Shown: positions 11,607-23,023 of the stretch, one piece after another | Position numbering within the stretch: the first letter of the stretch is position 1 | Layout of the letters: every line of letters starts with the position of its first letter | NCBI RefSeq assembly: GCF_036327775.1 | Contig: NZ_CP109598.1 | Span: 5,716,001 to 5,780,000 of the forward strand | Reading direction: 5' to 3' | DNA: 64,000 nt | From: Streptomyces sp. NBC_01498 | Lineage (GTDB): Bacteria; Actinomycetota; Actinomycetes; Streptomycetales; Streptomycetaceae | Notes under the pieces: generated by a model | The model's database searches: none | Seen by the model: only the letters and a program-made list of their open reading frames with translations | Told to the model about the DNA's origin: nothing | Position numbers and translations under genes: made by a program

Positions 11607-11634
11607 GCTTCTCTCCAGAAAGGTGCGGACCGGC

Positions 11635-14600
11635 GTGGCCGACCGTCTCATCGTCCGTGGCGCTCGCGAACACAATCTCAAGAACGTCTCGCTCGACCTT
11701 CCCCGTGACTCCCTGATCGTCTTCACCGGGCTCTCCGGGTCGGGCAAGTCCTCCCTCGCGTTCGACACGATCTTCGCCGAGGGGCAGCGCCGCTATGTCG
11801 AGTCGCTGTCCTCCTACGCCCGGCAGTTCCTCGGCCAGATGGACAAGCCGGACGTCGACTTCATCGAGGGTCTCTCCCCGGCCGTCTCCATCGACCAGAA
11901 GTCCACCTCCCGCAATCCGCGCTCGACGGTCGGCACGATCACCGAGGTCTACGACTACCTCCGGCTGCTCTTCGCCCGTATCGGCAAGCCGCACTGCCCC
12001 GAGTGCGGCCGGCCGATCACCCGCCAGTCGCCGCAGGCCATCGTGGACCGGGTGCTGGAGCTTCCCGAGGGCAGCCGGTTCCAGGTGCTGTCGCCGCTGG
12101 TCAGGGAGCGCAAGGGTGAGTTCGTCGACCTGTTCGCCGACCTTCAGACGAAGGGGTACAGCAGGGCGCGGGTCGACGGGCGGACGATCCAGCTGAGCGA
12201 GCCGCCCACGCTCAAGAAGCAGGAGAAGCACACCATCGAGGTGGTGGTCGACCGCCTCACGGTGAAGGGCGGCGCCAAGCGCCGGCTGACCGACTCGGTC
12301 GAGACCGCGCTCGGTCTCTCCGGCGGCATGGTCGTGCTCGACTTCGTGGACCTCCCCGAGGACGACCCCGAGCGCGAGCGGATGTATTCGGAGCATCTGT
12401 ACTGCCCGTACGACGACCTGTCGTTCGAGGAGCTGGAGCCCCGCTCGTTCTCGTTCAACTCGCCCTTCGGCGCCTGCCCGGACTGCACGGGCATCGGCAC
12501 CCGTATGGAGGTCGACCCGGAGCTGATCGTCCCGGACGAGGAGCGTTCGCTGGACGACGGCGCCATCCACCCCTGGTCGCACGGCCACACGAAGGAGTAC
12601 TTCGGCCGGCTCATCGGCGGACTGGCCGAGTCGGTCGGCTTCCGTACGGACATCGCCTGGGCGGGACTGCCGCAGCGCGCCAAGAAGGCGCTGCTGTACG
12701 GCCACAAGACCCAGGTCGAGGTGCGGTACCGGAACAGGTACGGCCGCGAGCGGGCGTACACGACGCCCTCCTTCGAAGGCGCGGTCTCCTTCGTCAAGCG
12801 GCGGCACTCCGAGGCGGAGAGCGACACCAGCAGGGAGCGCTTCGAGGGGTACATGCGGGAGGTGCCCTGCCCGACGTGTCACGGCACCCGGCTCAAGCCG
12901 CTCGTCCTCGCCGTCACGGTCATGGACCGGTCCATCGCCGACATCTCCTCGATGTCGATCAGTGAGTGCGCCGACTTCCTCGGCAGGATGACGCTGAACG
13001 CCCGGGACAAGAAGATCGCCGAACGGGTCCTCAAGGAGGTCAACGAACGGCTGCGGTTCCTGGTCGACGTCGGTCTGGACTATCTCTCGCTCAATCGCGC
13101 GGCCGGCACCCTCTCCGGCGGCGAGGCCCAGCGCATCCGGCTCGCCACCCAGATCGGTTCCGGTCTGGTCGGGGTGCTGTACGTGCTGGACGAGCCGTCC
13201 ATCGGCCTGCACCAGCGGGACAACCACCGGCTGATCGAGACCCTGATCCGGCTGCGCGACATGGGCAACACCCTGATCGTGGTGGAGCACGACGAGGACA
13301 CCATCAAGGTGGCCGACTGGGTCGTGGACATCGGCCCCGGCGCGGGCGAGCACGGCGGCAAGGTCGTCCACTCCGGCCCGTTGAAGGAGCTCCTGGACAA
13401 CGAGGAGTCGATCACCGGGCAGTATCTGTCCCGCAAGAGGGCCATCCCGACGCCGGAGGTCCGCCGACCGGTCGACCCCGGCCGCAGGCTCACCGTGCAC
13501 GGCGCGCGGGAGAACAATCTGCGGGACATCGACGTCTCGTTCCCGCTCGGTCTGTTCACCGCCGTCACCGGCGTCTCCGGATCCGGCAAGTCGACGCTGG
13601 TCAACGACATCCTCTACACACATCTGGCCCGTGAGCTGAACGGCGCCAAGTCGGTGCCGGGGCGCCATGTCCGGGTCGACGGGGACGACCAGGTCGACAA
13701 GGTGGTCCATGTGGACCAGTCGCCCATCGGCCGTACGCCCCGGTCCAACCCGGCGACGTACACCGGGGTCTTCGACCATGTGCGCAAGCTCTTCGCCGAG
13801 ACGATGGAGGCGAAGGTCCGCGGTTATCTCCCCGGACGCTTCTCCTTCAACGTCAAGGGCGGTCGCTGCGAGAACTGCGCGGGCGACGGCACGATCAAGA
13901 TCGAGATGAACTTCCTGCCGGACGTGTACGTCCCGTGCGAGGTCTGCCACGGCGCGCGCTACAACCGGGAGACCCTGGAGGTCCACTACAAGGGCAAGTC
14001 CATCGCCGAGGTGCTGGACATGCCGATCGAGGAGGGGCTCGACTTCTTCGAGGCCGTCCCGACCATCTCGCGCCACCTCAGGACACTCAACGAGGTGGGG
14101 TTGGGGTACGTGCGGCTCGGCCAGTCCGCGCCGACGCTCTCCGGCGGTGAGGCGCAGCGCGTGAAGCTCGCCAGCGAACTCCAGAAGCGGTCCACCGGCC
14201 GCACGGTGTACGTGCTGGACGAGCCCACCACCGGTCTGCACTTCGACGACATCAGCAAGCTGATCAGCGTGCTGTCCGGGCTGGTCGACAAGGGCAACTC
14301 GGTGATCGTCATCGAGCACAACCTGGACGTCATCAAGACGGCGGACTGGGTGGTCGACATGGGTCCCGAGGGAGGCAACGGCGGCGGTCTCGTCGTCGCC
14401 GAGGGCACCCCGGAGCAGGTGGCCGGGATCGCGACCAGCCACACCGGGAAGTTCCTGCGGGAGATCCTGGACGCGGAGCGGATCAGCGACGCCGCGTCCT
14501 CGGGCCGTACGAAGCCGGCGGCCCGCAGGACGGCGGCGAAGAAGACCGCTGCCAGGACCGCTGCCGAGAAGACCCCCGCCAAGTCCGCGGCGAAGGGCGC

Positions 14601-14676
14601 GAACACGTCCGCCGCCCAGGGCGCGGAGAAGGCTCCCGCCGCCAGGCGGACGGCCGCGAAGTCCCGCACGTCGTGA
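11635..14676 (+). CDS. uvrA: Excinuclease ABC subunit A
   Basis: 1013 residues from GTG 11635 ([16 protein letters not shown] follows); GTG 11623 lies too close to the AAAGG to be used. Two ABC ATPase cassettes are present: Walker [11 protein letters not shown] near residue 31 and GVSGSGKST near 645, with signatures [12 protein letters not shown] and [12 protein letters not shown]. Zinc-finger cysteines are in CPECGRP, CPTCHG and CENCAGDG...CEVCHG. UvrA dimers scan DNA for distortions and load UvrB. The last 50 residues form a Lys/Ala/Thr-rich tail ([20 protein letters not shown]), longer than in enterobacterial UvrA and reminiscent of histone H1 tails, likely to help DNA binding. Confidence 0.98.
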
Positions 14677-14719: not shown

Positions 14720-14780
14720 TATGCGCGGGATCTGGGTCAGAATGGGCACCTTCCATCAATCGGCAGGATGAGAGACGAAG

Positions 14781-15026
14781 GTGTCCGAGCAGCAGCGCGC
14801 CGAGAGCGCTTCCATCGTCCGGATCATGGCAGAGGTCCTCGGAGCCGACGAGGTGAAGCCGTCCGACAGCTTCTACGACTTCGGCGGTACGTCCCTCCAG
14901 GCGGTACGCATATGCACCCGCGTCAAGCGGGAGTTGGGCATCCGGGTCTCGCCCGACACGCTCCTCGACAGCGACACGGTCGCCGACTTCCAGGCCGCCG
15001 TCCTCGCCCACGGCGAAACCGTCTGA
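14781..15026 (+). CDS. Free-standing peptidyl/acyl carrier protein
   Basis: 81 residues from GTG 14781. It is a single carrier domain: IVRIMAEVLGADEVKPSDSFYDFGGTSLQAVRICTRVKRELGIRVSPDTLL. The serine of GGTSLQA is the expected 4'-phosphopantetheine site; NRPS carriers usually have GGDSL or GGHSL, so the Thr is a variant. It starts 104 bp after the uvrA stop, behind that gene's terminator, and ends 22 bp before the adenylation gene, so the two are almost certainly co-transcribed. The likely role is to hold the aminoacyl thioester made by the adjacent enzyme and present it to the C domain of the large synthetase. No phosphopantetheinyl transferase is nearby. Confidence 0.9.
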   Translation: MSEQQRAESASIVRIMAEVLGADEVKPSDSFYDFGGTSLQAVRICTRVKRELGIRVSPDTLLDSDTVADFQAAVLAHGETV

Positions 15027-15048
15027 CGGGGACGGGGACCGGCTTCTC

Positions 15049-16713
15049 ATGTCCCGCATGTCCCGCGAGCCCGGTGCCCGGCTCATCCACGAGGCGGTCG
15101 GGCACCAGGCCCGGCTCCGCCCCGACGCCGTCGCGCTCGTCCACGCCGGGCGGCGCGTCGGCTACCGGACGCTCGACCTGGCGGCGGAGGCGTACGCCGA
15201 GGAACTCGGCCGCCTCGGCGTGGGCCCCGGCCGCCTCGTGCCCGTGCTGCTGCCGCGCTCGCCCCAACTCGTGGCCGTACTCCTCGCCGTACTCAAACGC
15301 GGCGCCGCCTACGCGGCGCTCGATCCGGCACTGCCCGCCGGCCGGCTGCGGGCCCTGCTCGGCATGCTGGCGCCGCCCGTCGTCGTGGGCCCCGCCCCCG
15401 GCGGGCCCGGCGTGCCGCACGACGGCATCGACGGGATCGACGGGACCGACAGACACACCGTCTGGGCGCCGCCCGCCGAGGAGTTGAGCCAGGCCGCCCG
15501 GCGGGCACCGGCCGTCCCCCTGCGGCTGCCGGAGCCGGCCGACGGGTCCGCACCGGCCGCCGTGTTCTTCACCTCGGGCACCACCGGCACCCCCAAGGCC
15601 GTGGTCTCGCCACACCGTGCCACCACCCGGCTTTTCGGCCCGGACAGCTTCGCCGACTTCGGCCCCGGCCGGGTGATGTCCCAGACGGCACCCGTCTCCT
15701 GGGACGCGTTCGGCCTGGAGCTGTGGGGCATGCTGACCACCGGCGGCACGGCCGTCCTGCCCGACGGCGGCTACTTCCTCCCCGACGACCTGGCCGAACT
15801 CGTCACCGGCACCGGCCTGGACACCGTCTGGCTCACCGCCGCCCTCTTCAACCTCTTCGTGGACGAGGACCCCGACTGCTTCACCGGCCTGCGCCAGGTC
15901 CTCACCGGCGGCGAGCGGATGTCCGTCCCGCACGCCCGGACCTTTCTCGCCCGCCACCCGGACATCACGCTGCTCAACGGATACGGCCCGGTCGAGTGCT
16001 GCGTCTTCGTCACCACCCACCGGGTCCGCCCGGCCGACTGCGAGGCCGGGCACGGCATCCCGCTCGGTACGGCGGTCCCCGGCACCGGGATCCATGTCCT
16101 GGACGGCGCCACGGCCGTTCCGCCGGGCACGCTCGGCGAGATCTGTGTCTCCGGCGAGGGCCTGGCCGACGGCTATCTCGGCGACGAGGCGGCCACGGCG
16201 GCGGGTTTCACCACGTTCGACCCCGGCGGCGGCCCCCGCCGGATCTACCGCACCGGCGACCTCGGCCGGCTGGACGACGAGGGTGTCCTGCACTTCCACG
16301 GCCGCGCCGACCGGCAGGTCAAGATATCCGGGCACCGGGTCGAACCCGCCGAGACGGAGGCCGCGGCCCTGCGCCTGCGGGGGGTCCGGGAGTGCGTCGC
16401 CGTTCCGGTCGCGGGTGCGAGCGGCGCGTACGAACGGCTCGCGCTCTTCTACACCGGGGAACCGCCGTCCGACCGGGCCGACGGGACCACCGACGACCAC
16501 CCGGCCACCGGACCGGAGGCCGGTCCCGGAACCGGACGTGGACCCGGATCCGAGTCCGACGGCGCCGCACCGGACGCCGAGACCGTACGCCGCGCGCTCG
16601 CCGCCGTACTGCCACGCGCCCAAGTGCCCCACGACATCCGCCGGATCACTTCCTTCCCACGGACGCCGCGCGGAAAGACCGACATCGCCGCCCTGTTGGA
16701 CCCACCGGGCTGA
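15049..16713 (+). CDS. Free-standing amino-acid adenylation enzyme
   Basis: 554 residues from ATG 15049; ATG 15058 is an alternative. Core motifs appear in order: A3 FFTSGTTGTPKAVVSPH (residue 172 on), A4 SWDAFGLELWGML, A5 NGYGPVECCVF, A7 IYRTGDLGRLDDEG (about 399), A8 GRADRQVKISGHRVEPAETE and A10 PRTPRGKTD with the catalytic lysine (about 540). There is no carrier, condensation or thioesterase part. A5 has PVE where PTE is usual. Read against PheA, the pocket begins D-A-L and contains G-G at positions 301/322, resembling valine-type codes; this is tentative. A Gly/Pro/Asp-rich insertion (about 470-510) lies in the C-terminal subdomain. Expected role: activate an amino acid and load the preceding carrier protein. 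Confidence 0.88.
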   Translation: MSRMSREPGARLIHEAVGHQARLRPDAVALVHAGRRVGYRTLDLAAEAYAEELGRLGVGPGRLVPVLLPRSPQLVAVLLAVLKRGAAYAALDPALPAGRLRALLGMLAPPVVVGPAPGGPGVPHDGIDGIDGTDRHTVWAPPAEELSQAARRAPAVPLRLPEPADGSAPAAVFFTSGTTGTPKAVVSPHRATTRLFGPDSFADFGPGRVMSQTAPVSWDAFGLELWGMLTTGGTAVLPDGGYFLPDDLAELVTGTGLDTVWLTAALFNLFVDEDPDCFTGLRQVLTGGERMSVPHARTFLARHPDITLLNGYGPVECCVFVTTHRVRPADCEAGHGIPLGTAVPGTGIHVLDGATAVPPGTLGEICVSGEGLADGYLGDEAATAAGFTTFDPGGGPRRIYRTGDLGRLDDEGVLHFHGRADRQVKISGHRVEPAETEAAALRLRGVRECVAVPVAGASGAYERLALFYTGEPPSDRADGTTDDHPATGPEAGPGTGRGPGSESDGAAPDAETVRRALAAVLPRAQVPHDIRRITSFPRTPRGKTDIAALLDPPG

Positions 16714-16808
16714 CCGGCGCATGATCGGTGTCTGATTATCGCCGTACCGGCCTCCTCAGCCACCCCCAGAGGTCCGTCCCAGTCGTTCGCACCACGAAGC
16801 GAGAAGCG

Positions 16809-19800
16809 ATGGAACCGCGTACCTATCCCATGTCGTTCGAGCAGGAATCGATCTGGCTCAACGACCAGTATCAGCAGGGTGTCTCGCGCTATCTGGAGTC
16901 GTGGGTCCACCGGCTGCGGGGCCCCGTCGACATCGTTGCCGTCGAGACCGCGCTGACCGGAATCGTGGCCCGGCACGAGGCGCTGCGCAGCAGACTGGTG
17001 CTGGTCGGCACAATGCCCCGGCAGATCGTCGTACCGCCGCCGCGCGTCCCGGTCGACGTACGGCGGATCACGGCGGACCAGTGCGCGACGGCGCTCACGG
17101 ACGCCGTCACCCGGCAGACGGACCTGGGTGAACCGCCCCTGCTGCGGGCCACGTTGCTGCTGATCGCCGCCGACGGCGCGCCCGCGCCCGGCCCCGACGA
17201 CCGGGAGCACGCGGACAGGGGCGACGAGAGGGACCGGGCGCACGCGGGCGAGGACCCGGAGCGCGCGACCGATGAGTCCGTACTGGCCGTGGCGATCCAC
17301 CACGCCGTCATCGACGGCTGGTGCTTCAGCCTCCTCGACCGGGAGTTCAGCGAGCTCTACCGCGCCGCGGTGGAGGGCGGCCCGCCCCGGCTCCCCGACC
17401 TGCCGCTCCAGTCCGGGCCGTACGCCGAGCGGCAGCGCGGCACCGGTGCCGCGCACCGCGCCGAACTGGTCGAGCACTGGCGGGCCGAACTGGCGGGCGC
17501 GCCCGGCGAGTCGTCCTTCCCGGCCGACCGCCCCCGGCCGCCGGCGCTCAGCCACCACGGCGGCCGGGCCGAGTTCACCGTCGACGCCGCCACCGGGGAA
17601 CGGATACGCGGCCTCGCCGCCCGGCTGCGGACCACCCGCTTCGTCGTGCTGGCCGCCGCGCTGACCGCGCTGATCGGGCGCCACACCGGCCAGGACGACG
17701 TCGTCATCGGCACCCCCGTGTCACGGCGCGACGAACCGGAGACCGAGGACCTCATCGCCTGTCTCACCGACCTGCTGCCGCTGCGCGGACGGCCCCGCCA
17801 CGACCGGACCTTCACCGACCTGGTGACGGAGACGAAGCACCAGGTCAGGTCGGCCGTCCGGCACAAGGACGTGCCGTACGGGCGACTGGTGCGGGAGTTG
17901 GGCGTCGAGCGCACACTGAGCCGGTTCCCGCTGTTCCAGGTGGTGTTCGCGGTCGACGACGCGCCCCCGTCGGCGCTGACCCTGCCGGGTGTCGAGGCCG
18001 AGCGGGTCCAGGTGCACGCCGGGACCGCCAAGTACGACGTGTTTCTGCATCTGATACCCGACGGGGGCGGCTACCGGGGGCTGTGGGAATACACCGCCGA
18101 CCTGTTCGAACACACCACGGCCGAACGTCTCGCGGCCCGCTTCCGTACCCTCCTCGCCGACGCCGTCGCCCACCCGGAGACCGCCCTTCAGGACCTCGCC
18201 CTCCTGCCCGCCGACGAGGAGCGCCGGGCGCTCACCGAGTGGGCGCACGGAAAGCCCCCGCCCGCCGGCGTGCCGCTCGTGCACGAGGCGTTCGCGCGCG
18301 TGGCGCGGCGTACCCCGGACGCCCCCGCCGTCGTCGCGGACGGGCGGAGCCTGACGTACGCGGAGGTGGACGCCGCCGCCGACCGGATCGCCGCGCTGCT
18401 CCTCGCGCGGGGCGCCGTACGCCGCCCCGTGGGTGTGTGCCTGGAACGGACGGCCGATCTGCCGGTGGCCGTTCTCGGGGTGCTGCGGGCGGGCGGCAGC
18501 TGTGTGCCGGTCGACCCGGGCCACCCGGCGGAGCGGATCGCGTTCACGGTGCGGGACAGCGGGATCGACGTGCTCCTCACCCAGCGCGGGTGCCGGCCGG
18601 AGGGGCTGCCCGCCGGGGTCGAGGCGCTGCTCCTGGACGACCTGCCGGACCCCCCGCACCTGCCGGACGCGTCTGCCCCCTCGGACCTCTCGGACCTCTC
18701 GCATCTGCCGGTTCGGCTGGACGCCCCCGCTCCGGCCCCGGTCGTCCCCGTGGCCCCCGACGACCTCGTGTACGTCATCTACACCTCGGGGTCCACGGGC
18801 CGCCCCAAGGGCGTCGCCATGGAGCACGGCCCGCTCGCCAACCTGGTCGACTGGCAGCGCCGCCGGTCGGCGGCCGGGTCGTCCGGCGGCGCCGGGCCCC
18901 GCACACTCCAGTTCGCACCCCTCGGTTTCGACGTCGCGTTCCAGGAGATCTTCGCCACCTGGGCGGCGGGCGGCGCCCTCGTCCTCGTCGGCGAAGAGGC
19001 CCGCAGAGATCCCCACCAACTCCTCGACCTGATCGACTCGGAGCGGATCCAGCGGCTGTTCCTGCCGTTCGTCGCGTTGCAGCGGCTGGTGGAGTACGCG
19101 TGCGCCACCGACCGGCGCTGCGACTCTCTTGAAGAGGTCCTCACGGCGGGCGAACAGCTTCAGGTCACACCCGCCCTGCGGCGGTTCTTCGGCACGCTCA
19201 CCCGGGCCACGCTGGAGAACCAGTACGGCCCCTCGGAGACCCATGTCGTGACGGCGGAGCGGCTGGGGCCCGACCCGGCCCGCTGGCCCGATCTGCCGAG
19301 CATCGGCCGCCCCGTCGACGGCGCCGTCGTCGTCCTGCTCGACGAACGGCTGCGGCCCGTTCCGCCGGGCGCCGTGGGCGAGTTGTGCGTCGGCGGCCCG
19401 GTGGTCGCACGCGGCTACATGGGGCTGCCCGGACCGACGGCCGAACGGTTCGTCACCGGCGACCTCCCGGGCACCCGGCCCGCCACGCCTCCCCGAACCC
19501 GGGCCGGTCGCTTCTACCGCACCGGGGACCTGGCCCGGCTGCTGCCCGACGGCCGCATCCAGTACATCGGGCGGAGCGACGGCCAGGTCAAGATCCGGGG
19601 CCACCGGGTGGAGACCGGCGAGGTGGAGGCCGCCGTACGCGCCCTGCCCGGGGTCGCCGACGCGGCGGTCGTGGCGCGGGACCTCGGACCGGGCGCCGGA
19701 AAACGGCTGATCGCCTACTACCTCACCGGCGACCGGGCGAAGGCCCGCCCGGGGGAGATACGCGAGAGGCTGCGCGCCGTGCTGCCCGACCCGCTGGTCC

Positions 19801-21530
19801 CGGCGCGCTGCGTCCCGCTCGACCGCTTCCCGCTCACCTCGACCGGCAAGGTGGACCGGGCCGCGCTCGCCGCACGGGCCGACGGGGACGAGGAGGGGGA
19901 CGGGAACGACGGCTCCGTACGGGACGCTGCCACGCCCCTCACCGTCACGGAGGAGCGCGTCGCACAGCTCTGGTCCGCGCTGCTCGGCCGGGGCACCGTC
20001 GGCCCGCAGGACGACTTCTTCGTACTCGGCGGCGACTCCCTGCTCGCGACCCGGCTGGTCCTCGCGCTCCGGGAGGAGCTGGGCGTCCGGATGCCGCTCC
20101 GTTCGGTCTTCACCACACCGACGCTCGCGGGCCTCGCCGCACTGGTCGACGCCGCCGCCGGGACACCGCGACCCCTCGCGGACCACTCCTCCGCAGAAGG
20201 ACACGCGACAACAGACCGGCACGCCTCAGCAGAAGGGCACGCGACAGGGGAAGGGCACCCGACGGACATCCCCGGGCTGAGCGGCGACATCCGGCTCGCC
20301 CCCGACATCGTCGCCGCCGACGAGGTGCGCGCCGTCGTCCCCGACCCGGACCAGGTCCTGCTGACCGGGGCCACCGGCTTCCTCGGCGCCTTTCTCCTGA
20401 GGGAGCTGCTGCGCCGGACCGGCGCCACCGTCCACTGCCTGGTCCGGGGGAGCGACCGGCACGACGCCGGGAAACGGCTGCGCTCCGCCCTGGAGTCGTA
20501 CGGCCTGGCCGACCCGGCCACCGAACACCGTGTGCGTGTCGTCGTGGGCGACCTCGCCCGGCCCCGCCTCGGTCTCACGACGGCCGGCTTCGACCGCCTC
20601 GCCCGGACCGTCGACGCCGTCTACCACTGCGGAGCCGCCGTCAACCTGGTCTTCTCCTACGGACAGTTGAGAGACACCAACGTCCACGGCACCCACGAGA
20701 TCCTGCGGCTCGCCGCCCTGCACCGCACCGTGCCCGTCCATCACCTGTCCACCGCCGGGGTGTACGGAGGCGGCCCGTCCACGGGCCCCGGCGCCACCGG
20801 AGAGGGCCCCGGACGTCCTGTCCGTCCCGAGGACCCGACCGGACCGCCGGAGGCGCTGGAGCACGGCTACACGCAGAGCAAGTGGGCCGCAGAGCGGCTC
20901 GCCGACGCGGCACGGGAAAGGGGGCTGCCCGTCACCGTGTACCGGCCGACGCGGATCACCGGCGAGTCGACCACCGGCGTGTGCCAGACGGGCGACTTCA
21001 TGTGGCTCCTGCTGAAGGGCTGTGTCCAGGCGGGCGTCGCCCCGGCCGGGGTCGACACGGCCTTCGACCTCGTACCGGTGGACTTCGTCGCCGCCGCCGT
21101 CGTGGCGCTGTCCCGCCAACCCCGTTCGGCGGGGCGGACGTTCCACCTCACCGGGAAGCGCCCGTTGCGGCTGGACACCGCCGTGGCCCGCCTGCGCGCA
21201 CTCGGCCACCCCATGATGGACGTGCCGCCCGCCGACTGGCTCGCCGCCACCGAGGCGGACCCCGGCAACGCCGCCTTCCCGCTGCTCTCGGCGATGGCCG
21301 CCGAGACCCGCGGCGGTGGCTCGGAGGGCAGCCTGCTCCTCGACGGGGAGGGCACCCGGCGCGCGCTGGAGGGCACCGGCATCGTCTGCCGCGAGGTGGA
21401 CGACGCGGTCTTCCGTACCTACGTGGAGTACTTCACCCGCACGGGGTTCCTGCCGCCCCCGCCACCCTCCCGCGCGGTCGGCGTCCCCCGCCCCACCGCC
21501 CCGCCCCGCTACACCACCTCGGCCTCATAA
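16809..21530 (+). CDS. Non-ribosomal peptide synthetase, C-A-T-R (reductive release)
   Basis: 1573 residues from ATG 16809, where MEPRTYPMSFEQESIWL is a normal C-domain start; GTG 16728 would add 27 residues. Condensation domain: IHHAVIDGW near residue 163. Adenylation domain (about 490-1010): YVIYTSGSTGRPKG, FDVAFQEIF, NQYGPSETH, FYRTGDLARLLPDG, STGKVD. Carrier: FFVLGGDSLLATR (Ser about 1076). Thioester reductase (1180-end): LLTGATGFLGAFLLREL for NADPH and GYTQSKWAAERL with catalytic Tyr and Lys. A linker at 1110-1165 repeats AEGHAT-like units. The pocket starts D-V-Q, as in proline-type codes, but Q at position 322 departs from them. Reductive release predicts an aldehyde or alcohol product. 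Its 3' end overlaps the convergent kinase by 22 bp. Confidence 0.94.
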   Translation: MEPRTYPMSFEQESIWLNDQYQQGVSRYLESWVHRLRGPVDIVAVETALTGIVARHEALRSRLVLVGTMPRQIVVPPPRVPVDVRRITADQCATALTDAVTRQTDLGEPPLLRATLLLIAADGAPAPGPDDREHADRGDERDRAHAGEDPERATDESVLAVAIHHAVIDGWCFSLLDREFSELYRAAVEGGPPRLPDLPLQSGPYAERQRGTGAAHRAELVEHWRAELAGAPGESSFPADRPRPPALSHHGGRAEFTVDAATGERIRGLAARLRTTRFVVLAAALTALIGRHTGQDDVVIGTPVSRRDEPETEDLIACLTDLLPLRGRPRHDRTFTDLVTETKHQVRSAVRHKDVPYGRLVRELGVERTLSRFPLFQVVFAVDDAPPSALTLPGVEAERVQVHAGTAKYDVFLHLIPDGGGYRGLWEYTADLFEHTTAERLAARFRTLLADAVAHPETALQDLALLPADEERRALTEWAHGKPPPAGVPLVHEAFARVARRTPDAPAVVADGRSLTYAEVDAAADRIAALLLARGAVRRPVGVCLERTADLPVAVLGVLRAGGSCVPVDPGHPAERIAFTVRDSGIDVLLTQRGCRPEGLPAGVEALLLDDLPDPPHLPDASAPSDLSDLSHLPVRLDAPAPAPVVPVAPDDLVYVIYTSGSTGRPKGVAMEHGPLANLVDWQRRRSAAGSSGGAGPRTLQFAPLGFDVAFQEIFATWAAGGALVLVGEEARRDPHQLLDLIDSERIQRLFLPFVALQRLVEYACATDRRCDSLEEVLTAGEQLQVTPALRRFFGTLTRATLENQYGPSETHVVTAERLGPDPARWPDLPSIGRPVDGAVVVLLDERLRPVPPGAVGELCVGGPVVARGYMGLPGPTAERFVTGDLPGTRPATPPRTRAGRFYRTGDLARLLPDGRIQYIGRSDGQVKIRGHRVETGEVEAAVRALPGVADAAVVARDLGPGAGKRLIAYYLTGDRAKARPGEIRERLRAVLPDPLVPARCVPLDRFPLTSTGKVDRAALAARADGDEEGDGNDGSVRDAATPLTVTEERVAQLWSALLGRGTVGPQDDFFVLGGDSLLATRLVLALREELGVRMPLRSVFTTPTLAGLAALVDAAAGTPRPLADHSSAEGHATTDRHASAEGHATGEGHPTDIPGLSGDIRLAPDIVAADEVRAVVPDPDQVLLTGATGFLGAFLLRELLRRTGATVHCLVRGSDRHDAGKRLRSALESYGLADPATEHRVRVVVGDLARPRLGLTTAGFDRLARTVDAVYHCGAAVNLVFSYGQLRDTNVHGTHEILRLAALHRTVPVHHLSTAGVYGGGPSTGPGATGEGPGRPVRPEDPTGPPEALEHGYTQSKWAAERLADAARERGLPVTVYRPTRITGESTTGVCQTGDFMWLLLKGCVQAGVAPAGVDTAFDLVPVDFVAAAVVALSRQPRSAGRTFHLTGKRPLRLDTAVARLRALGHPMMDVPPADWLAATEADPGNAAFPLLSAMAAETRGGGSEGSLLLDGEGTRRALEGTGIVCREVDDAVFRTYVEYFTRTGFLPPPPPSRAVGVPRPTAPPRYTTSAS

Positions 21531-22447
21531 GGAGGTTCGGCGCCCGTACGCGAGCAGGTGACGGCGGCGGCCCGCGCGGCGTACCGAAGGACGTCCCGCC
21601 ACCCCGCCGCCCCGAGCCCGTCCAGTGCCCGCTCCGACAGGGCGTCGCGGGCGGCCAGCCCGTGCAGCAGCGCGGCGTTCACCGTGTCGCCCGCGCCGAT
21701 CGTGTCGACGACGTCCACCGGGACGGCCGGTACGGAGACCTCCACCCCGGCCCGTGTCCGTACGCTCAGCCCGGCCCCGCCCCGCGTCAGCACCACCGCC
21801 GCCGGACCGCGCGGCACGCCCCCGAGCCATCGCGCGTCCTCCTCGGAGAGCTTCAGCAGCGTCACGTACGGCAGCCGGCCGGCGAAGCGCGCACGGCCGG
21901 CGCCGGCGTCCGGGATCAGCGCGGGCCGGATGTTCGGGTCGAGGAGGGTGAACAGCCCGCGCTCCGCCTCGCGGCGCAGCAGCGCCTCGTAGGCACGCGC
22001 ACCCGGCTCCAGCACCAGTGAACATCCTCCGAGGGCCAGCGCCGTCGCCGACGGCGGGAGCGGCGGCGGCAGTTCGAAGAGCCGGTCGGCGGTGCCCCCG
22101 GCGTAGAAGACGTAGTCGGCCCCGCCGTCGCCTCCCGGAGAGGCGACGGCGAGCGTCGTCGGTTCGGGGCCCCTCTGTACGAGGGAGGTGTCCACGCCCG
22201 CCGTACGGAGCCCCGCCAGCAGCGCGGTGCCGAAGCCGTCCGTGGAGACCCGCGAGCAGAAGGCGGCCGGGGAGCCGAGCCGGCCGAGGGCGACGGCGGT
22301 GTTGTACGGGCCGCCGCCGAGCCGGGGCAGCAGGGGCGGCAGCGGGCCGTCCGTCCCGGCGGCGACCGCGCCCCCGTTTCCGGCACCACTCGCCGGGTCC
22401 CGCCGGGGAACCAGGTCGACCAGGGACTCTCCAGCGACGACGATCAC
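21509..22447 (-). CDS. PfkB-family carbohydrate kinase
   Basis: 312 residues from GTG 22447 (IVVAGESLVDLVPR follows). PfkB signature 1 is LPRLGGGPYNTAVALGRLG, and signature 2 is DVVDTIGAGDTVNAALLHG with the catalytic Asp of GAGD. FCSRVSTDGFG and LLDPNIRP are further ribokinase-fold blocks. It phosphorylates a sugar or sugar-like alcohol with ATP in the cytosol; fructose or ribose are common substrates, but the sequence does not settle this. It converges on and overlaps the end of the peptide synthetase, and is divergent from the Rieske gene. The N-terminal region has an unusual Gly/Ala insertion (residues 20-40). Confidence 0.9.
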   Translation of the reverse strand: MIVVAGESLVDLVPRRDPASGAGNGGAVAAGTDGPLPPLLPRLGGGPYNTAVALGRLGSPAAFCSRVSTDGFGTALLAGLRTAGVDTSLVQRGPEPTTLAVASPGGDGGADYVFYAGGTADRLFELPPPLPPSATALALGGCSLVLEPGARAYEALLRREAERGLFTLLDPNIRPALIPDAGAGRARFAGRLPYVTLLKLSEEDARWLGGVPRGPAAVVLTRGGAGLSVRTRAGVEVSVPAVPVDVVDTIGAGDTVNAALLHGLAARDALSERALDGLGAAGWRDVLRYAARAAAVTCSRTGAEPPYEAEVV

Positions 22448-22594
22448 GCCGCCGAACGTACCCGTCGTCCATGCGTGCGACAGCGCCCGCGGCGCCGGCC
22501 GCGCCCGGACGGGGGAACCGGACGCCCCATGCCGGTGGCGCGACCGCCCCGGTAAGGTCGGGCGCAGTGCCAGCCCCCGAGCATTGGAGACGCC

Positions 22595-23023
22595 ATGCCC
22601 GCCCGGCCCACCCCCCGTCGTACCGTCCTCAAAGGGGCCGCGCTCGCCGGCGCCGCCGGTGCCGGTCTGGCCGCCTGTTCCACCGAGTCCAAGGTCGGCC
22701 ACGCCGAGGAGCCGACCCCGACCGCCCCGGTGGACCTCGGCCCGGCCGACGCCGTACCCGTCGGCGGCGCCAAGCTCTTCCAGGACCAGCGTCTGGTGGT
22801 GAGCTGCCCCGCCGAGGGCCAGTACCGGGCCTTCAGCGCGCAGTGCACCCACGCGGGCTGCCTGCTGGACAAGGTGGAGGGCACCGAGGGCAACTGCCCG
22901 TGCCACGGCAGCCGGTTCGACGTCACGACGGGCAAGGCGACGAGGGGGCCGGCGACGGAGCCGCTGCCCGAGGTCCCGGTCAGCGCGAAGGACGGCAAGC
23001 TCGTCGCGGGCCCCGGCGCCTGA
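22595..23023 (+). CDS. Exported Rieske (2Fe-2S) lipoprotein
   Basis: 142 residues from ATG 22595, with GGAG upstream and a TAAGGT -10-like element at 22552-22557. The N-terminus is a Tat signal (PRRTVLKGAALAGAAGAG) ending in a lipobox, LAAC, so the mature protein should be folded in the cytoplasm and then anchored outside by a lipidated cysteine. The cluster ligands are CTHAGC and CPCHGS, two Cys and two His. The domain is small, like the Rieske proteins with high-potential clusters in electron transfer; no oxygenase domain is attached. The partner is unknown; its conserved neighbour is uvrC, which gives no functional hint. Confidence 0.93.
   Translation: MPARPTPRRTVLKGAALAGAAGAGLAACSTESKVGHAEEPTPTAPVDLGPADAVPVGGAKLFQDQRLVVSCPAEGQYRAFSAQCTHAGCLLDKVEGTEGNCPCHGSRFDVTTGKATRGPATEPLPEVPVSAKDGKLVAGPGA

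Follow-up and report, generated by a model that had tools for sequence, protein, structure and literature searches.

A compact trio of genes probably encodes a minimal, self-contained dipeptide synthetase whose product, H-Xaa-prolinal, would close to a fused imine (probability roughly 0.6). The trio consists of a free carrier protein (T1), a free adenylation enzyme (A1), and a synthetase with condensation, adenylation, carrier, and reductase domains (C-A-T-R, here CATR). It lies in a 64,000-nucleotide stretch, hereafter the window, of the 7.27-Mb, single-contig genome of Streptomyces sp. NBC_01498 (Table 1). The split architecture itself is not new because a free A, a free T, and a C-A-T-R protein with prolinal release have been published for tilivalline. 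What is new here is the assignment of proline, the insertion history of the locus, and the presence of two strongly conserved untranslated stretches.

Table 1. Features of the locus and its immediate surroundings, in window positions.
Feature	Position	Strand	Basis
T1, free carrier protein	14781-15026	+	Pfam PP-binding, 57.9 bits, 1.2e-15
A1, free adenylation enzyme	15049-16713	+	Pfam AMP-binding, 218.9 bits, 1.3e-64
CATR, C-A-T-R synthetase with terminal NAD(P)H-dependent thioester reductase	16809-21530	+	Pfam, NCBIfam, motifs
uvrA, left neighbour, outside the pathway	11623-14676	+	UvrA_inter, UvrA_DNA-bind
pfkB-family sugar kinase, right neighbour, outside the pathway	21509-22447	-	PfkB, 9.3e-37 on 21509-22486
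Rieske-type protein, right neighbour, marker for the empty site	22595-23023	+	Rieske, 1.7e-13
Conserved untranslated stretch before T1	14721-14780	+	53/60 sites invariant in six orthologues
Intergenic stretch between A1 and CATR	16714-16808	+	87/95 sites invariant in six orthologues

The original prediction had read a free T, a free A, and a C-A-T-R protein, consecutive and on one strand, and this reading is confirmed by Pfam and NCBIfam matches and by intact catalytic motifs. CATR matches the Pfam families Condensation (242 bits), AMP-binding (274.3), AMP-binding_C (38.4), PP-binding (58.4), and NAD_binding_4 (234.1), and its C domain carries the motif HHAVIDGW. The carrier motif is GGTS in T1 and GGDS in T2, and the serine of the surrounding DFGGTSLQ in T1 is the predicted phosphopantetheine site. 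In the R domain the nucleotide motif TGATGFLG, STAGV, and the Thr/Ser-Tyr-Lys motif GYTQSK are all intact, and the domain scores above the curated cut-off of NCBIfam Thioester-redct (TIGR01746; 321.9 vs. 213.35 bits). These motifs support reductive release, as had been predicted, and do not have the look of the inactive reductase that would have spoken against it. The Pfam family AMP-binding_C is absent from the free A1, which has a Gly/Pro/Asp-rich insert at that place. A1 keeps the A10 lysine, K543, and the Asp235 equivalent, D219, and it scores slightly below the cut-off of the NCBIfam model AA-adenyl-dom (313 vs. 317.4 bits).

The trio has a GC3 of 0.90-0.92 and contains no TTA codons. Among six aligned orthologues, codon positions 1 and 2 are invariant at 835 of 1108 sites in A and 2418 of 3146 in CATR, and third positions at 302 of 554 and 791 of 1572, respectively; three of the orthologues (L031, L134, and L135) are mutually close, which raises all of the invariant-site fractions. 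Because positions 1 and 2 are conserved above third positions, the reading frames are not due to chance.

The pocket code of the second adenylation domain, A2, carries the assignment of proline. Codes were read by alignment to motif anchors, whose placement we take from general knowledge. The window's A2 gives DVQFLAQVVK, while the pattern across all 25 cassettes is DVQ[FIH][ILVA][AS]Q[VI]VK and several relatives have DVQFVAQVVK. Among PDB chains with a single matched stretch, the best for A2 is tyrocidine synthase 2, and the matched stretch is presumably its proline module. The window's A2 code agrees with VQ(Y/F)IAHVV, the signature of modular proline or methylproline domains, at six of eight places, and it departs from the usual proline code in having Gln for His and Leu for Ile. 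That signature comes from a passage of PMC3874040, which also describes the pyrrolobenzodiazepine domains taking branched prolines as remodelled, and a table in PMC9113097 gives DVQFVAQVVK and DVQFVSQVMK as Pro. Since its code fits published Pro codes, A2 likely takes proline, and a methylproline is a possible substrate.

A proline-type A2 bears directly on the model that had been proposed, the aureusimine/phevalin synthetase AusA, in which two primary-amine amino acids yield a dipeptide aldehyde and from it a monocyclic 2(1H)-pyrazinone. AusA is one protein. The two modules here are spread over three open reading frames, and once these are combined the domain order is the same A-T-C-A-T-R, as predicted and as the Pfam matches support; release is also reductive, and the AusA model NF047350 (length 2373) ranks third for CATR. 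As a model, however, AusA is poor. NF047350 gives only 432.7 bits with CATR and 206 with A against a cut-off of 2500, and the AusA R domain is only distantly alike, with a partial match of 36 bits. A monocyclic pyrazinone is thus improbable. Because the A2 code is proline-type and the aldehyde would sit on a prolinal, the simple 2(1H)-pyrazinone gives way to a fused pyrrolo[1,2-a]pyrazinone. If the product were just another pyrazinone, little would change.

The first residue is less clear. The A1 code, DALLLGGVFK, varies by at most one change in all 24 trio relatives, and the Asp that binds the alpha-amine is kept in 81 of 81 A1-family sequences (with the relatives drawn from the best 80 of 228 loci). 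Valine codes have a broadly similar look, so one might guess at an aliphatic, Val/Ile/Leu-like residue. This is not secure because the code read from the alignment with SlgN1 (4gr5), the best PDB match of A1 at 290.8 bits, is identical to the A1 code at eight of ten places, and no published code of the A1 type was found: eight strings of the DALLxGGVFK kind had no match in the open-licence literature searched. SlgN1, from the streptolydigin pathway, differs from A1 in having an MbtH-like domain and is listed for 3-methylaspartate in PMC11253843. The neighbours of other A1 relatives, the A-T-C proteins, were examined for a hint of the A1 substrate and gave none. If the main reading holds, an Xaa-prolinal product would show what a DALLxGGVFK-type A1 pocket recognises.

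The closest published layout is that of the tilivalline/tilimycin synthetase. PMC5698749 covers npsA, thdA, and npsB: NpsA and ThdA are predicted to handle anthranilate and NpsB to handle proline, and reductive release gives an N-acylprolinal, which cyclises. PMC5875774 describes NpsA and ThdA as freestanding A and T proteins, respectively, and NpsB as a C-A-T-Re protein, and it notes that A and T are fused in most Xenorhabdus versions. The likeness thus extends to the free A, the free T, and the C-A-T-Re protein, 6.4 kb in total, with proline second; the layout and code here likewise indicate separate A and T proteins and a putative proline-type C-A-T-R. The gene order here is T-A-CATR, unlike that of the tilivalline system.

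This likeness raises the alternative that the trio makes a tilivalline- or tomaymycin-like pyrrolobenzodiazepine, with A1 loading anthranilate and the product closing to a seven-membered diazepine imine. The split is identical, proline again comes second, and T1 has a tomaymycin carrier among its PDB matches (26.4 bits). We nevertheless consider it very improbable. A1 and its relatives keep the alpha-amine Asp in all 81 sequences read, the best PDB match of A1 activates an amino acid, and no anthranilate-supply gene is present among ten neighbours scanned with Pfam at 1e-10. The first residue of tilivalline, by comparison, is described as 3-hydroxyanthranilate, supplied by an aroX operon in its cluster.

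In the favoured reading, the free A1 would activate an alpha-amino acid and load it in trans onto the free T1. In CATR, A2 would load L-proline on T2, the C domain would join the first residue to it, and R would reduce the thioester with NADPH, freeing H-Xaa-prolinal. The free N-terminal amine and the proline amide would then allow spontaneous closure to a fused six-membered cyclic imine, a tetrahydropyrrolo[1,2-a]pyrazin-4-one, which could oxidise to a bicyclic pyrazinone. For Val-Pro, the computed [M+H]+ values are 199.144 (aldehyde), 181.134 (imine), and 179.118 (oxidised ring), each 14.016 higher for Leu-Pro or Ile-Pro. The genes, their motifs, their conservation, and the insertion are observed; we infer proline as the second residue from the pocket codes, and two-electron release and ring closure from the chemistry of the family. 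Closure to a six-membered imine follows by reasoning of the same logic as that by which the N-acylprolinal of tilivalline cyclises. The proposed imine is likely to be a six-membered cousin of the pyrrolobenzodiazepine core.

Whether R performs a two- or a four-electron reduction is not fixed by the sequence because the closest matches of R are a type I PKS chain (8v1x, 342 bits) and MxaA (4u7w, 284 bits), and the AusA R domain is far off, matching over 133 residues only. We take both 8v1x and MxaA to release polyketide-type chains. A four-electron reduction, giving an aminoacyl-prolinol and not an aldehyde, would fit the second-ranking match, as the MxaA R domain presumably gives an alcohol. 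It would also fit the best NCBIfam model for CATR, the myxochelin synthetase MxcG (NF038078), a family with alcohol or amine release. CATR falls short of that model's cut-off (677.9 vs. 2300 bits). The best match of R, however, is the type I PKS chain, and release domains of this kind can give aldehydes, so that an alcohol product seems unlikely.

The surroundings of the trio bear on its self-contained character. The convergent pfkB gene overlaps the end of CATR by 22 bp, and the order to the right is pfkB, Rieske, uvrC, rapZ, a CofD-family gene, and whiA. As had been predicted, no thioesterase or MbtH gene lies at the locus, and none was found among the ten neighbours scanned with Pfam at 1e-10. 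These include one TerC-family membrane protein and one protein without any Pfam family. Elsewhere, the genome has three MbtH genes, and of its 19 condensation-domain matches two are the halves of the locus's own C domain. There are also two further R-domain matches, C1:6931387-6932496 and C1:7003302-7004273, the first inside an open frame of 1494 amino acids near several condensation domains.

To collect relatives of the trio, genomes sampled one per species were searched with an alignment of 15 A proteins; 228 loci were confirmed, and the best 80 of them were analysed. The order T-A-C-A-T on one strand was found at 24 of these 80 loci, and R is also present at 23 of them; the contig of the remaining one ends before R. 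The 24 trio loci are from Streptomyces (22), Micromonospora (one), and Paractinoplanes (one). Searches of the flanks (up to 10 kb, some of them short) with the domains of the window found other NRPS pieces at five of the 24 (L033, L034, L039, L042, and L060) and none at the other 19. Homologues are thus not always found beside further NRPS modules, a pattern that would have refuted the original prediction. In three of the 24 loci T and A are fused in one open frame, and PP-binding and AMP-binding occur together in 12 of 120 homologues among the matches listed. That the two share a frame in these three relatives supports a pairing of T1 with A1 and agrees with the predicted loading in trans.

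An alternative to self-containment is that the trio assists a larger NRPS encoded at another place in the genome, or that its loading module serves another assembly line. The other condensation domains and MbtH genes of the genome would suit such a role, as would the five relatives with NRPS pieces in the flank. The 19 clear flanks and the housekeeping-type genes annotated beside some trio relatives argue against it, as does the release domain within the locus itself. We regard this helper role as improbable, and a self-contained synthetase remains the favoured reading.

Of 150 genus genomes sampled separately, 99 had an R-domain match of some kind at 1e-30, which is not a count of trios. Single-protein A-T-C-A-T-R relatives, suspected from R matches in frames of about 2200 amino acids, were not confirmed in 20 fetched stretches. 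Two of these held the trio (L152, whose CATR is identical to that of L037, and L153), and one (L161) held a C-A-T-R protein with other modules. The other 17, three of them short (1.8-5.5 kb), had an R match without a C-domain match, and one had a weak A match (29%); these R matches are taken for putative PKS release domains.

The trio directly follows uvrA in six genomes: the window's, L029 (S. niveus), L030, L031, G377, and G367. The Rieske gene follows in five of the six, while the contig of L031 ends in pfkB. The CATR proteins of these genomes form one clade (support 100/100); the tree had 28 rows, 12 of them with untrimmed N-terminal ends, and left out L040. For the empty site, the Rieske gene was searched for in 61 genomes, and 16 of the 60 others, with Rieske identity of about 71% or more, were fetched; this sample left out G028, G063, and G077. 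In all 15 relatives that reached uvrA the gap between uvrA and Rieske was 267-2258 bp and without matches to T, A, or C-A-T-R, and in one more relative the contig ended too early. In L137, uvrA lies about 196 bp from a pfkB that is 74% identical. A DNA query spanning the junction of A and CATR had a full match in three of 392 genus genomes, the window's own included, and in 18 further genomes the match was confined to the start of a C domain. Among 72,556 plasmid records there was one partial match, again in the start of a C domain. On the simplest reading, the trio is an inserted block that was acquired once at uvrA in one clade.

Comparison of the six orthologues also revises one start codon. 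CATR had been given the start GTG 16728. This GTG is found in all six but is in the CATR frame only in the window, since the other five have one base more, and in L029, L030, and L031 the gene caller's first start past the preceding stop is the ATG aligned to 16809. Because GTG 16728 is out of frame in five of six and these three offer no earlier start, ATG 16809 is the most likely start. At the T start (14775-14783), five of the orthologues have ATG AAG GTG, with the ATG two codons upstream of the window's GTG 14781. The window has ACG AAG GTG, which leaves that GTG, so its T1 seems to use a weaker start than its orthologues.

Both untranslated stretches are conserved above coding third positions in the six orthologues, whereas directly 3' of CATR only 10 of 70 sites are invariant. 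The stretch before T1 is a probable promoter or leader. A 10-bp inverted repeat there, GGGCACCTTC / GAAGGTGTCC, which includes one G-T pair, can form a stem across the GTG start; a search of the stretch for a sigma-70-type promoter found none. The stretch between A and CATR probably has a regulatory function or controls translation. Its 3' end holds the only 50-nt windows in the locus without a single variable site; these 18 overlapping windows start at 16759-16776, span 16759-16825, and extend 17 bases into CATR. Structured RNA was considered for the conserved intergenic stretches and rejected, with fold z-scores of -1.68 (16714-16808), -1.43, and -1.08 (14721-14780), none significant. Rfam gave no family in the intergenic stretches and one chance-level match elsewhere. 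A four-codon frame, ATGATCGGTGTCTGA (16721-16735), is identical in the six orthologues; no claim is made for it because its surroundings are equally identical.

With a scaffold encoded in under 7 kb and no tailoring gene seen beside it, the product could be tested by moving the three genes into a laboratory host. An Xaa-prolinal would link this orphan locus, which recurs in Streptomyces, Micromonospora, and Paractinoplanes, to a protease-inhibitor-like warhead or a bicyclic imine, as prolinals inhibit proline-specific peptidases. A wider proposal, which we offer tentatively and hold to be possible rather than probable, is that the trio makes a recurrent, overlooked actinobacterial product. An aminoacyl-prolinal would become a pyrrolo[1,2-a]pyrazin-4-one imine, which might target proline-specific peptidases or serve as a signal; the genes would have been dropped beside uvrA in one Streptomyces clade, with translation or transcription tuned by the two conserved untranslated elements. 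No Streptomyces pathway to a prolinal or pyrrolopyrazinone was recognised in those parts of the open-licence literature searched, an absence that is weak.

The neighbourhoods of some relatives offer minor observations. The next gene is of one common family in L043, L046, L060, and L089, and the L046 copy is a monomeric isocitrate dehydrogenase according to Pfam. A MalK-like ABC ATPase follows C-A-T-R in L048 (7307-8515, by Pfam) and L102 (16429-17568, of the same homologue cluster). In a single relative, L044, a FemAB-like acyltransferase (15959-17128) starts 10 bp past C-A-T-R and may carry out tailoring in that relative. A1-like domains also form a second large group (L067, L075, L087, and similar loci, from about 10001 onward), in which a weak C-domain match follows the A1-like domain and many members have the code DALLMGGVFK. 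A single A-T-C protein in L087 has an FMN-dependent dehydrogenase and an MFS protein as neighbours, and in L075 a KS-AT-T protein lies near the A1-like domain.
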